Of a stretch of DNA of 64,000 bases, positions 43,780 through 47,965 are shown piece after piece. The DNA is from Flavobacteriaceae bacterium CG2_30_34_30 (GTDB lineage: Bacteria; Bacteroidota; Bacteroidia; Flavobacteriales; Flavobacteriaceae). Under the pieces are notes generated by a model. The model was not told where the DNA came from. It was given only the letters and a program-made list of their open reading frames with translations, and ran no database searches. The stretch spans positions 1 to 64,000 of the forward strand of contig MNYN01000048.1 in the NCBI GenBank assembly GCA_001873105.1, given 5' to 3'. The position numbers and the translations under genes were made by a program. Numbering within the stretch: position 1 is the first letter of the stretch; each line of letters begins with the position of its first letter.

Positions 43780-43820
43780 TTTATTTTGTTTAAAATAAAT
43801 GTATTTTTGTTAAACGTTTA
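43780..43820 (+). promoter_or_regulatory. crtI promoter with two palindromes, candidate MerR-B12 operator
   Basis: A perfect inverted repeat TTTATTTT-GTTT-AAAATAAA (43780-43799) ends two bases before the -7 box TATTTTTG (43802-43809). It fills the space where the promoter spacer should be, the usual seat of MerR-family operators. A second perfect palindrome TAAACGTTTA (43811-43820) covers the expected start of transcription and touches the crtI ATG. No clean -33 element is seen (TTTG at 43785-43788 is too close), as expected for a regulated promoter. Confidence 0.6.
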
Positions 43821-45304
43821 TGCAAAAAAAAATATCCATCATCGGTTCAGGATTTTCTGCTTTGGCGGCTTCTTGTTATTTAGCAAAAGCCGGAAATAAA
43901 GTTACCATCTATGAAAAAAATGAAACAATAGGAGGAAGAGCACGGCAGTTAAAAAAAGAAGGCTTTACCTTTGATATTGGACCAACTTGGTACTGGATGC
44001 CTGATGTTTTTGAACGTTTTTTTGGTGATTTTGAAAAACACCCTTCAGATTATTACCAATTAATTAAACTAAATCCTGCCTACCAAGTATATTTTGCTAA
44101 AAATGACTCAATCACCATTGAAGATACCCTTCAAAAAATTTGCATTGCTTTTGAAAAGGAAGAAAAAGGAAGTTCAAAAAAATTAAAAAAATTTATTGCT
44201 AAAGCACAAAGCAATTACAATATTGCCATTAAAGATTTGGTTTATAGACCGGGAGTTTCTCCATTAGAGCTAGTCACGCCTGCAACGATGAAAAAAATTG
44301 GGCAATTTTTCAGCACCATAAGCAAAGATGTTCGAAAAGAATTTTCCAATCCGCGATTAGTATCCATTCTTGAATTTCCTGTGCTATTTTTAGGAGCCAA
44401 AGCATCCAACACACCTTCCTTTTATAGTTTTATGAATTACGCCGATTTTGGGTTAGGAACCTTTCATCCAAAAAATGGCATGTACAGTGTCATTCTTGCC
44501 ATTAAAAATCTTGCAGAAGAATTAGGAGTTACTATTAAAACCAACCAAAATATTGAAAAAATAATTACAGAAAACAAAGTTGCAGTAGGTATTATCGCCA
44601 ACGGCGAAACCATACTTTCTGATATCGTTTTAAGCGGAGCCGATTACCACCACACCGAAACCTTATTAGAAAAACAAGACCGTCAATATTCTGAAACGTA
44701 TTGGAACAAAAAAATATTTGCACCATCTTCCCTCCTTTTTTATGTAGGTTTTAATAAAAAAATCAAAAATGTGGAACATCACACTTTATTTTTTGATGTA
44801 GATTTTGAAGCACATGCAAAATCCATTTACAATAATCCGGAATGGCCGGAAGACCCATTGTTTTATGCAAGTTTTCCATCAAAAACAGATACAAATGCTG
44901 CACCGGATGGAAAAGAAGCTGGTATATTTTTAATTCCATTAGCTCCGGGATTAATTGATATTCCGGAAATTAGAGAAGAATATTTTGAAAAAATAATGTC
45001 ACGTTTTGAAAAAATAACCAAGCAAAATGTAAAAGAATTTGTTATCTTTAAAGAAAGTTTTTGCGTAAATGATTTTATAGAACAATACAATTCCTATAAA
45101 GGAAATGCATACGGCCTTGCAAATACGTTATTTCAAACTGCTTTCTTAAGACCAAAATTGAAAAGTAGAAAAGTAAAAGGATTATATTTTACAGGACAGT
45201 TATCTGTGCCTGGACCGGGTGTGCCACCGTCCTTAATTTCAGGAAAATTAGTTGCCCAGCTCATTGAAAAAAATATTTTTAAAACCACTATAAACGATAA
45301 ATAA
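43820..45304 (+). CDS. crtI: Phytoene desaturase
   Basis: A 494-residue FAD enzyme that converts phytoene to lycopene. The N-terminal dinucleotide fold reads IIGSGFSALAASCYLAKAG and is followed by KNETIGGRARQLKKEGFTFD and GPTWYWMPDVF. The C-terminal signature is LYFTGQLSVPGPGVPPSLIS. Length fits bacterial CrtI. First of four carotenoid genes on the plus strand, preceded by the MerR/B12 regulator. The related CrtN/CrtP or CrtD-type enzymes are less likely, given the neighbours. Confidence 0.95.
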   Translation: MQKKISIIGSGFSALAASCYLAKAGNKVTIYEKNETIGGRARQLKKEGFTFDIGPTWYWMPDVFERFFGDFEKHPSDYYQLIKLNPAYQVYFAKNDSITIEDTLQKICIAFEKEEKGSSKKLKKFIAKAQSNYNIAIKDLVYRPGVSPLELVTPATMKKIGQFFSTISKDVRKEFSNPRLVSILEFPVLFLGAKASNTPSFYSFMNYADFGLGTFHPKNGMYSVILAIKNLAEELGVTIKTNQNIEKIITENKVAVGIIANGETILSDIVLSGADYHHTETLLEKQDRQYSETYWNKKIFAPSSLLFYVGFNKKIKNVEHHTLFFDVDFEAHAKSIYNNPEWPEDPLFYASFPSKTDTNAAPDGKEAGIFLIPLAPGLIDIPEIREEYFEKIMSRFEKITKQNVKEFVIFKESFCVNDFIEQYNSYKGNAYGLANTLFQTAFLRPKLKSRKVKGLYFTGQLSVPGPGVPPSLISGKLVAQLIEKNIFKTTINDK

Positions 45305-45354
45305 TTTATTTATATCATCCTTACTTTTATTGATAATGTACAGCAAAAATAATT

Positions 45355-46194
45355 ATGAAATCAATTTTTGACACCGTTTCAAACAAATGTAGTAAGACCG
45401 TCACGCAATCTTATAGTACTTCCTTTTCCCTAGCTACTAAAATGTTGGCTCCTTCTATTCGTCAAGATATTTACAACATTTATGGATTTGTTCGTTTTGC
45501 TGATGAAATTGTTGACTCTTTTCACGACTACGATAAAAAAACACTGTTCAACCGATTTTCACAAGAATTAGAAAACGCCTTAGAAGATAAAATAAGCTTA
45601 AATCCCATCCTAAATTCTTTTCAGCATACGGTTTTAAAATACGGTATTGAAAAACACTTAATTACATCCTTTATGCAAAGCATGCAAATGGACTTGACTA
45701 AGAAAAAATACTTAACTCAAGACGAATATAAAGCCTATATTTACGGCTCAGCTGATGTCGTGGGTCTAATGTGTTTGAAAGTGTTTGTTAATGGAAATCA
45801 AGAAAAGTATGAGGTTTTAAAAGAATCGGCAATGCACTTAGGTTCTGCGTTTCAAAAAGTAAATTTTTTACGCGATTTAAAAGCAGATTTCGAAGATTTA
45901 AGCCGGTCTTATTTTCCGAATACAGACCTAGAACAACTAGATGAGTATTCAAAAAACAATATTATAAAAGAAATAGAAGAAGATTTTAACAAAGGGTTTC
46001 AGGGCATACTTCACCTGCCTGTTGAAGCAAAACTAGGCGTTTATACCGCTTTTATTTATTACAGAAAACTATTAACCAAACTTAAAAAAACACCCTCAAC
46101 AGAAATACGAAAAACAAGAATTCGAGTTACTAATTATCAAAAAATGGGCTTACTGGCTAGAAGCTATGTAAATTTTAGACTAAATTTAATTTAA
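45355..46194 (+). CDS. crtB: Phytoene synthase
   Basis: A 279-residue enzyme that joins two geranylgeranyl diphosphates. The trans-isoprenyl motifs are YGFVRFADEIVDSFHDYD (first Asp-rich) and AFQKVNFLRDLKADFEDLSR (second). STSFSLATKML near residue 22 is also typical. 50 bp after crtI and directly abutting crtZ, so one operon. The GGPP synthase crtE is not in this window. Confidence 0.95.
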   Translation: MKSIFDTVSNKCSKTVTQSYSTSFSLATKMLAPSIRQDIYNIYGFVRFADEIVDSFHDYDKKTLFNRFSQELENALEDKISLNPILNSFQHTVLKYGIEKHLITSFMQSMQMDLTKKKYLTQDEYKAYIYGSADVVGLMCLKVFVNGNQEKYEVLKESAMHLGSAFQKVNFLRDLKADFEDLSRSYFPNTDLEQLDEYSKNNIIKEIEEDFNKGFQGILHLPVEAKLGVYTAFIYYRKLLTKLKKTPSTEIRKTRIRVTNYQKMGLLARSYVNFRLNLI

Positions 46195-46647
46195 ATGGCA
46201 ACAACACTAATTTGGATATTCGTTTTTTTAGGAACCTTTTTCCTAATGGAATTTCTAGCTTGGTTTACTCATAAATACGTAATGCACGGTTTTTTATGGA
46301 GTTTACATAAGGATCACCATCTTAAAGACCATAAAAGCTGGTGGGAACGAAACGATTTTTTCTTTATTTTTTACGCCATAGTTAGTATTGGTTTCTTTAT
46401 TAGTTGGGATTCTTTTGGTTTTTGGTTTGGTTTGCCTATTGGTTTGGGCATTTTTGCTTATGGATTTACATATTTTTTGGTGCATGACATATTCATTCAC
46501 CAACGATTTAAGCTTTTTAGAAACGCTAACAATTGGTATGCAAAAGGAATACGAAGAGCACATAAAATGCACCACAAACATCTAGGAAAAGAAAAAGGCG
46601 AATGCTTTGGAATGCTCATTCCACCTATAAAATATTTCAAGAAATAA
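46195..46647 (+). CDS. crtZ: Beta-carotene hydroxylase
   Basis: A 150-residue membrane diiron enzyme that adds the 3-hydroxyl groups of zeaxanthin. Histidine clusters HKYVMH, HKDHH, HDIFIHQR and HKMHHKH are all present, with hydrophobic helices between. The ATG follows the crtB stop with no gap, which implies translational coupling. Length is normal for bacterial CrtZ. Confidence 0.95.
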   Translation: MATTLIWIFVFLGTFFLMEFLAWFTHKYVMHGFLWSLHKDHHLKDHKSWWERNDFFFIFYAIVSIGFFISWDSFGFWFGLPIGLGIFAYGFTYFLVHDIFIHQRFKLFRNANNWYAKGIRRAHKMHHKHLGKEKGECFGMLIPPIKYFKK

Positions 46648-46651
46648 GTCT

Positions 46652-47347
46652 ATGGAAACCCTTTATATGTGGCTAAATATAGGTTCTATTTCTTTACCAT
46701 TACTTTTTAGTTTTCATCCAAAACTTCAATTTTACAAACGTTGGAAATATCTTTTCCCAAGTATCGCTATTATGATGCTTTTGTTTATTTCTTGGGATAT
46801 TTTGTTTACCAGATATGAAATTTGGGGATTTAATTCCTCCTATTTCTTAGGCATCACCATAGTAAATTTACCAATTGAAGAATGTCTCTTTTTTATCTGT
46901 ATCCCTTTTGCATGTGTTTTTACCCATTATTCCTTGCTTTATTTTTTTCCAAAAATGGAACTTTCAAAAAAAGCAACTTCTGTTATCTATGTTCTTTTTC
47001 TAACTCTATTAATACTGCTTTGCTTTTGGTTTTATGACCGTTGGTACACTATGGTAAACTTTGGGTACGCAATTATCCTTTTAGGGCTAACCTATAATTT
47101 TCAACCGGAAGTTCTTCGAAAGTTTTTTCTCACTTTTTTAGTTATGCTCCTCCCTTTTTTTTTAGTAAATGGCGTGCTTACTGGCAGCTTTATTGAGGAG
47201 CCTGTGGTATGGTATAACAATGCTGAAAATATGGGAATCCGTCTTTTCACCATACCCGCAGAGGATACTGTTTATGCTTTTTCGATGATACTTACCTGCA
47301 TTGTACTCTTGGAGTTTTTTGAGCGAAAATTCACAAAAGTTCCTTAA
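46652..47347 (+). CDS. Lycopene beta-cyclase, fused CrtYcd type
   Basis: A 231-residue membrane protein with about seven helices made of two related halves. The first has NLPIEECLFFICIPFACVF, with the P-x-E-E active-site motif, and the second has IRLFTIPAEDTVYAFSMIL with P-x-E-D. This is the heterodimeric-type cyclase fused into one chain, as in other Flavobacteriia, and it would turn lycopene into beta-carotene. Placed 4 bp after crtZ. Last gene of the carotenoid operon. Confidence 0.93.
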   Translation: METLYMWLNIGSISLPLLFSFHPKLQFYKRWKYLFPSIAIMMLLFISWDILFTRYEIWGFNSSYFLGITIVNLPIEECLFFICIPFACVFTHYSLLYFFPKMELSKKATSVIYVLFLTLLILLCFWFYDRWYTMVNFGYAIILLGLTYNFQPEVLRKFFLTFLVMLLPFFLVNGVLTGSFIEEPVVWYNNAENMGIRLFTIPAEDTVYAFSMILTCIVLLEFFERKFTKVP

Positions 47348-47442: not shown

Positions 47443-47832
47443 ATGACAATTCAAAAAGCCACGGAAAAAGTACTATTTATTCTAGCAATTGCAGTTATTC
47501 CTTTTATCTATTCCTGCAAAAACGAAAATAAAGAAGCAGAAAGTAACAACGCTATAGAAAATTCAGCGAACGACAAAGCAACAAACCCAGATGCTACAAC
47601 AAATGAAAATGTCGCTTTAAATCCAGCACACGGTCAACCTAACCACCGATGTGATATTCCAGTAGGAGCACCATTGAATTCTCCTAAAACAGTACCATCT
47701 ATTGAGTCTACTTCTTCCCCTGTTTTGAAGAATCCAAGCCCAACTAGCACAAATACTGCTGCTTTAAATCCGGCACACGGTCAACCAAATCACCGCTGTG
47801 ATATTCCTGTTGGGGCACCTTTAAATCAATAA
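47443..47832 (+). CDS. Small lipoprotein with duplicated HRCDIPVGAPL peptide
   Basis: A 129-residue lipoprotein: signal with lipobox cysteine C25 (FIYSCKNENKE), then an Asn/Thr/Ser/Glu-rich linker. Two copies of a 22-residue motif, ALNPAHGQPNHRCDIPVGAP plus LN, lie at residues 58-79 and 107-128, the second ending one residue before the C-terminus. The copies are identical in protein but differ at nine synonymous sites. His, Cys and Asp in the motif would suit metal or haem binding or a disulphide; this is inference. The motif recurs in flavobacterial proteins as I remember it, without known function. Confidence 0.88.
   Translation: MTIQKATEKVLFILAIAVIPFIYSCKNENKEAESNNAIENSANDKATNPDATTNENVALNPAHGQPNHRCDIPVGAPLNSPKTVPSIESTSSPVLKNPSPTSTNTAALNPAHGQPNHRCDIPVGAPLNQ
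47614..47826 (+). repeat. Two 66-bp coding repeats, protein-identical
   Basis: Copy 1 is 47614-47679 and copy 2 is 47761-47826. Over 22 codons there are nine synonymous and no amino-acid changes. That pattern points to selection on the peptide, not to a recent duplication. Confidence 0.9.
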
Positions 47833-47844
47833 AAACTTACTTTC

Positions 47845-47909
47845 AAAAAAAATGTGAAGTCTTCATATACTTCTAAAAATGGAGTTTTTGAAAATTTCAC
47901 ATTTTTTTT
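47845..47909 (+). terminator. Probable terminator after the repeat lipoprotein gene
   Basis: AATGTGAA near 47851-47858 pairs with TTCACATT near 47896-47903; the stem extends through an A run and an eight-base T run. The intervening loop is long (about 37 nt) and weakly structured, so strength is uncertain. Confidence 0.6.
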
Positions 47910-47965
47910 AGAAGAAGACATAAAGGGATTCTTATTTTTACCACAACTTATAAAATATATTTCCA

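Follow-up and report, generated by a model that had tools for sequence, protein, structure and literature searches.

Surface lipoproteins of the Bacteroidota are marked by the lipoprotein export signal, LES, which takes the form K-(D/E)2, or a sequence like S-D-D, at positions +2 to +6 (PMC5080379). The repeat-protein family considered here resembles these LES lipoproteins (PMC5080379) in that most members have a lipobox, with acidic and Lys residues soon after the Cys; unlike them, it has no clear LES consensus. In the member encoded in the window (the whole stretch of 64,000 nucleotides analysed) the sequence after the lipobox reads CKNENK, and the family mean at +2 to +6 is 1.4 acidic and 1.4 basic residues.

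The window gene and its product

The motif gene is a 129-codon ORF whose translation is a predicted lipoprotein of 129 aa (Table 1). A hydrophobic signal peptide ending FIYS-C25 is followed by a low-complexity arm and by two occurrences of one 22-residue peptide, ALNPAHGQPNHRCDIPVGAPLN, 147 nt apart. The initial annotation had described the two copies as identical in protein with nine silent codon differences, and this is what the ORF contains: the copies differ at 9 of 66 nt, all of them third positions in nine different codons, with no amino-acid difference. Taking as expectation that about 29% of random single changes are silent, nine silent changes out of nine have a P of about 1.4e-5. A function for the repeat at the level of DNA was considered and rejected, because the copies encode one and the same peptide with 14% of their nucleotides different. 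The gene occupies a single locus, with no further copy of it in the window's genome, whose nearest relatives among those sampled are Planktosalinus and genomes akin to it. The inverted repeat beyond the stop codon is a probable terminator separating the motif gene from an M28 peptidase gene; the sequence of Planktosalinus lacus shows a similar hairpin 3' of the motif gene.

Table 1. Coordinates of features in the window and of a partner gene in Weeksellaceae loci
Feature	Position	Strand	Basis or remark
Gene, 129-aa predicted repeat lipoprotein	47443..47832	+	ORF; homologues across many Bacteroidota
Predicted lipoprotein signal peptide, lipobox-like IYS-C25 (C25 = 47515-47517)	47443..47517	+	Sequence; C25 conservation
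Low-complexity N/E/K/T-rich arm, anchor to copy 1	47518..47613	+	Translation; AF2 pLDDT about 45-68
Motif copy 1, ALNPAHGQPNHRCDIPVGAPLN	47614..47679	+	HMM match E 3.9e-15; AF2
Core of copy 1, N60-L78	47620-47676	+	Sequence
Linker with conserved SPVLKN at 47716-47733	47680..47760	+	Alignment; P93 >90% conserved
Motif copy 2, same protein sequence as copy 1	47761..47826	+	HMM match E 4.5e-15; 9 silent differences
AT-rich inverted repeat	47840..47914	.	32-nt arms, 81% complementary, 11-nt loop
Cys/His-rich secreted protein gene	L235:10222-10578	+	Adjoins HMA-domain TonB receptor; also L229, L234-L238
Cys/His-rich secreted protein gene	L231:13373-13744	-	Adjoins HMA-domain TonB receptor

Totalled over nine pairs of related species, 163 differences in the motif codons are silent and 6 replace an amino acid; for the remaining codons the totals are 279 and 239. 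By this codon comparison, constraint acts on the peptide, as had been proposed from the window alone; the conserved core is one of 19 residues rather than 22.

From its signal peptide and lipobox, the window protein is predicted to be a lipidated bacterial lipoprotein. C25 is more than 90% conserved in a 63-sequence alignment, and 104 of 123 proteins carry the strict lipobox pattern; the window protein falls outside that pattern by reason of a Tyr at -2. The idea of a lipid-anchored arm suits most relatives but not all of them: in L012, L019 and L115 a transmembrane segment stands at the N-terminus, and L031 has a plain signal peptide. Judged by such signals, the lipid anchor is common in the family, not obligatory.

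A family of repeat proteins in Bacteroidota

The unit belongs to a Bacteroidota-wide family with the consensus N-P-x-H-G-x-P-x-H-x-C-x3-V-G-x-P-L, found in Flavobacteriaceae, Weeksellaceae, Sphingobacteria- and Chitinophaga-type genomes, Hymenobacteraceae and Marinilabiliales. The family is defined by at least two units in a short exported protein, and the window protein belongs to it. With the 22-residue peptide as query, strong matches (E below 1e-4) were found in 19 of 199 Flavobacteriaceae genomes, every one a short ORF with two or three units. A profile of the unit found the family in 32 of 395 Bacteroidota genomes (two weak matches besides are probably due to chance), in all five genomes of the window's genus, in 111 of 197 Weeksellaceae genomes (11 of 33 genera) and in 48 of 201 genomes of a second order; elsewhere it is rare. 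At least 558 matches turned up in GTDB contigs, the best 80 of them from Flavobacterium, Pontibacter, Rufibacter, Marinilabilia, Chryseobacterium, Chitinophagales and others. One match, L126, lies in a MAG labelled Zixibacteria, a label that may be a binning error. Plasmids, phages and viral contigs yielded no match to the motif.

The initial annotation placed the peptide in other flavobacterial proteins that had no assigned role; the genome searches confirm the first part of this statement, and the family, structure and literature searches agree with the second. In Pfam the window protein is without a match at E up to 1, and nothing in Pfam, NCBIfam or PHROGs exceeds the curated cut-off; weak NCBIfam matches, far below cut-off, cover the signal peptide and arm. 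Searches of the open full-text literature with exact motif strings and with context terms returned no match. Foldseek found no PDB counterpart for the predicted model of the whole protein or of a single unit, and a PDB sequence profile search returned only a chance zinc-finger fragment (E 1.5). The family is new to the libraries searched, namely Pfam, NCBIfam, PHROGs, the PDB and, by motif string, a literature of 5.39 million openly available papers.

Anatomy of the unit

Units were counted by a leave-one-column-out scan of 166 collected proteins; these had been gathered by motif similarity, so that strongly diverged units could be missed. Two units are present in 80 proteins, three in 79, four in 6 and one full unit in 1, and hence 165 of the 166 have two to four copies. 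The sole protein with one full unit, L196, retains a degenerate first unit, NPPHGAPGHVHE, in which the Cys has become His. Over this wide collection, in which copy number and neighbours were both examined, the motif is near-constant, not variable. Among 172 distinct units N1, P2, G5, H9, C11 and G16 are invariant; H4 is kept in 171, the single exception being Q; V15 and L19 seldom vary. Of the three residues initially singled out as conserved, His, Cys and Asp, the first two stand, with a second His added; the Asp does not, as D occupies its position in only 114 of the 172. Positions 10 and 12, on either side of the invariant Cys, covary: R goes with D or E (120 of 121 cases), and D with A, S, T or K (29 of 29). 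Only one of 123 proteins has a Cys beyond those of the lipobox and motif.

Identical copies within a protein are found in 7 of the 80 two-copy proteins, and the mean difference between copies is 3.4 of 19 residues. Since first copies are closer to each other (3.0 differences in 19) than to the second copies of other proteins (4.0), duplication appears to be mostly old, and the window's identical pair atypical.

Linkers range from 14 to 69 residues across the family and are mostly of low complexity, as initially described; an exception is a proline (P93 in the window protein) more than 90% conserved among two-copy relatives. It belongs to a stretch SPV[L/I]xN in the linker of these proteins.

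AlphaFold2 has low overall confidence in the whole protein (63 sequences, pTM 0.32), with about 88 pLDDT over both units and bridge residues at the ends of each. An isolated unit with its flanks (32 residues, 76 sequences) is predicted with a mean pLDDT of 89.7, reaching 92-96 in the core; a bridge from residue 6 to residue 24 closes it, and helix is absent. From these models we read the unit as a compact, ordered closed loop that would form independently of the second copy.

Gene neighbourhoods

No neighbour is conserved across all 81 loci. Most Flavobacteriaceae, Sphingobacteria-type and Hymenobacter-type genomes place clade-specific housekeeping genes beside the motif gene. In the window a lycopene cyclase gene lies 95 bp upstream and the M28 peptidase gene on the other side; in the window's relatives L068 and L069 the motif gene likewise lies between a crt operon and an M28 peptidase gene. 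The region upstream in the window (43820-47347) holds a complete-looking carotenoid cluster, with phytoene desaturase-like, phytoene synthase-like, hydroxylase-like and lycopene cyclase genes, of which only the last was identified by profile; its synteny is retained in L068 and L069. A link to carotenoid synthesis was rejected, because among the loci examined the crt operon precedes the motif gene only in Planktosalinus and the near relative L068.

In Weeksellaceae the motif gene clusters with genes for a small Cys/His-rich secreted protein and for a TonB receptor bearing an HMA domain; in the loci opened, the cluster is on one strand and its gene order differs. The receptor has one or more HMA-like CxxC domains (Pfam HMA 1.9e-9, CopZ-like), and the cluster often lies directly downstream of genes for an RprY-like response regulator and a histidine kinase. 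The gene for the Cys-rich protein is found 0.1-3.3 kb from the motif gene (0.1-0.6 or about 3 kb) in seven of nine genera checked, and the two are unlinked in the genera g464 and g480; in g201 (L230) and g202 (L231) direct reading showed the HMA-TonB gene between the motif gene and the gene for the Cys-rich protein. The Cys-rich protein itself, recognizable by CC..CC..C...C..C..C and a C-terminal IWxPPK, is present in 161 of 197 Weeksellaceae genomes (27 of 33 genera) and has no match in Pfam or NCBIfam at 1e-4.

In Marinilabilia the motif gene lies within ars islands. The order in L105 is arsR, arsE, arsF, arsG, an ArsP_1/SaoE-like permease gene, the motif gene, arsR, arsC, an arsM-like gene and acr3; these assignments drew also on tests of the L077 members. 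In L253 the motif gene adjoins arsG and an ArsP_1 permease gene. In L126 the order is acr3, arsR-like, arsC-like, the motif gene, arsR-like and an ArsP_1 permease gene, with acr3 and the permease assigned by profile and the other genes by reading; the operon also includes genes for two small exported proteins carrying a CxTC motif. Elsewhere an HMA protein is encoded next to the motif gene (L194).

Within two genes of the motif gene (38 contexts, n = 149) there are matches to ArsR (4), HMA (3), ArsP_1 (2) and chromate transporter (2); at five to eight genes' distance (n = 145) these four are absent among families with at least two members. This contrast between near and far genes is a hint and no strong statistic, since only about four lineages supply the contexts; in absolute terms, too, the numbers differ little. 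The chromate-transporter family genes seem to lie next to the motif gene in Rufibacter (L124:10523-11884, minus strand) and in a second Hymenobacter-type genome (L256:8415-9758, plus strand).

A possible role in metal handling

The account that best joins these observations takes the motif protein to be a lipoprotein of the envelope whose loops bind soft metals or metalloids, in the service of copper or arsenic homeostasis; we consider that it could equally be right or wrong. The protein would be a membrane-anchored flexible display protein, and each of its 19-residue units would fold on its own into a small loop. Two invariant His and one Cys per loop (HGxxxHxC) would make up a putative ligand site for a soft metal or metalloid, held in place by the framework residues N-P, G, V-G and P-L. 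Cu(I) is the most plausible candidate, As(III) and comparable thiophilic ions being candidates in some lineages. Each chain would offer two to four sites, and the protein would serve, outside the inner membrane, to bind metal at low capacity or to hand it on. We infer coordination by H4, H9 and C11, as we do the choice of metal and the cellular face; the window copy, in its non-metal neighbourhood, would presumably do the same job as relatives in metal contexts.

A metal(loid) site is the simplest reading because HGxxxHxC is invariant and the loop appears autonomous, exported, repeated and, in places, set in copper- and arsenic-type operons. The change of Cys to His in the degenerate unit of L196 fits a ligand role, as a single case. 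Against it, loci of the window, Planktosalinus and most Flavobacteriaceae, Sphingobacteria-type and Hymenobacter-type genomes have housekeeping neighbours; no more than about four lineages provide metal contexts; g464 and g480 keep the motif gene apart from the Cys-rich partner; and the solved structures and metal-binding families searched contain no match. The more general proposal sees in the unit a mini-domain of a new kind, able to bind a metal or metalloid by itself through two His and one Cys in a closed, Omega-like loop, multiplied phylum-wide in Bacteroidota envelope proteins and recruited to copper and arsenic operons; we hold it tentatively, leaning slightly against it.

The main rival, unlikely in our judgement, makes the unit a recognition tag: a displayed linear epitope bound by a conserved partner (a receptor, an envelope enzyme or the export machinery), with the copies providing avidity. 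Short repeated units of fixed consensus on disordered linkers would suit such a tag, as would the constraint on the copies while the linkers drift, and the framework residues N-P, G, V-G and L are as invariant as the His and Cys. However, no partner gene is linked across clades at the loci examined, the invariant set contains two His and one Cys, and the unit is predicted by AlphaFold2 to fold alone.

Thiol redox chemistry, in which the motif Cys would form intra- or intermolecular disulphides or exchange with periplasmic thioredoxin-like proteins of, for example, the ArsE/ArsF type, is less probable again. It draws on the single Cys per unit, on the presence of at least two units in 165 of 166 proteins and on the thioredoxin-like ArsE and ArsF in the L105 cluster (Marinilabiliales); but it leaves two equally conserved His unexplained, gives the 79 three-copy proteins an odd number of motif Cys, and finds no redox partner near most loci.

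Two further ideas are very improbable. The initial annotation had offered haem beside metal as a ligand: the metal suggestion gains from the HMA/TonB and ars operon contexts of relatives, and haem, or binding of the c-type cytochrome kind, gains nothing from them, since His and Cys are present in the unit but the window protein has no CxxCH motif and the recurrent functional neighbours are metal and metalloid genes, not cytochrome-maturation genes. A pheromone- or RiPP-like precursor, cleaved to set free several identical peptides, would account for several copies of one peptide with linkers between, but the copies of a single protein are mostly not identical although the core is constant phylum-wide, the loci examined have no maturation or export cassette, and lipoprotein export argues against cytoplasmic RiPP processing.

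A peptide so short and so invariant, nearly always repeated and absent from the family and structure libraries searched, is unusual. If the soft-metal reading is true and the loops bind copper or arsenite, the Bacteroidota, abundant in gut, soil and marine communities, would possess a dedicated envelope protein for metal handling, and a very small portable metal site. Through the clusters of Weeksellaceae and Marinilabiliales the metal hypothesis is open to direct test.

Comparison with known metal-handling proteins

Likeness to known envelope metal binders is confined to the presumed function. With the ars operon proteins (ArsR, ArsC, ArsM, Acr3, ArsE/F/G and the ArsP_1/SaoE-like permease) the motif protein shares a place inside the operon, in Marinilabiliales and in L126; it belongs to none of the named Ars families. 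With the HMA metallochaperones (PF00403, CopZ) it shares a setting in Weeksellaceae, where an HMA-bearing TonB receptor is encoded in the motif gene's cluster. HMA proteins are built on CxxC in a ferredoxin-like domain (PF00403), whereas the window protein has neither a PF00403 match nor CxxC, and its unit is a 19-residue His2Cys loop. Like the metallothionein-like small Cys/His-rich secreted proteins, the motif protein is small and exported, with repeated thiol and imidazole groups as potential ligands, but the mark of its family is strict spacing and an invariant framework, not high Cys density.
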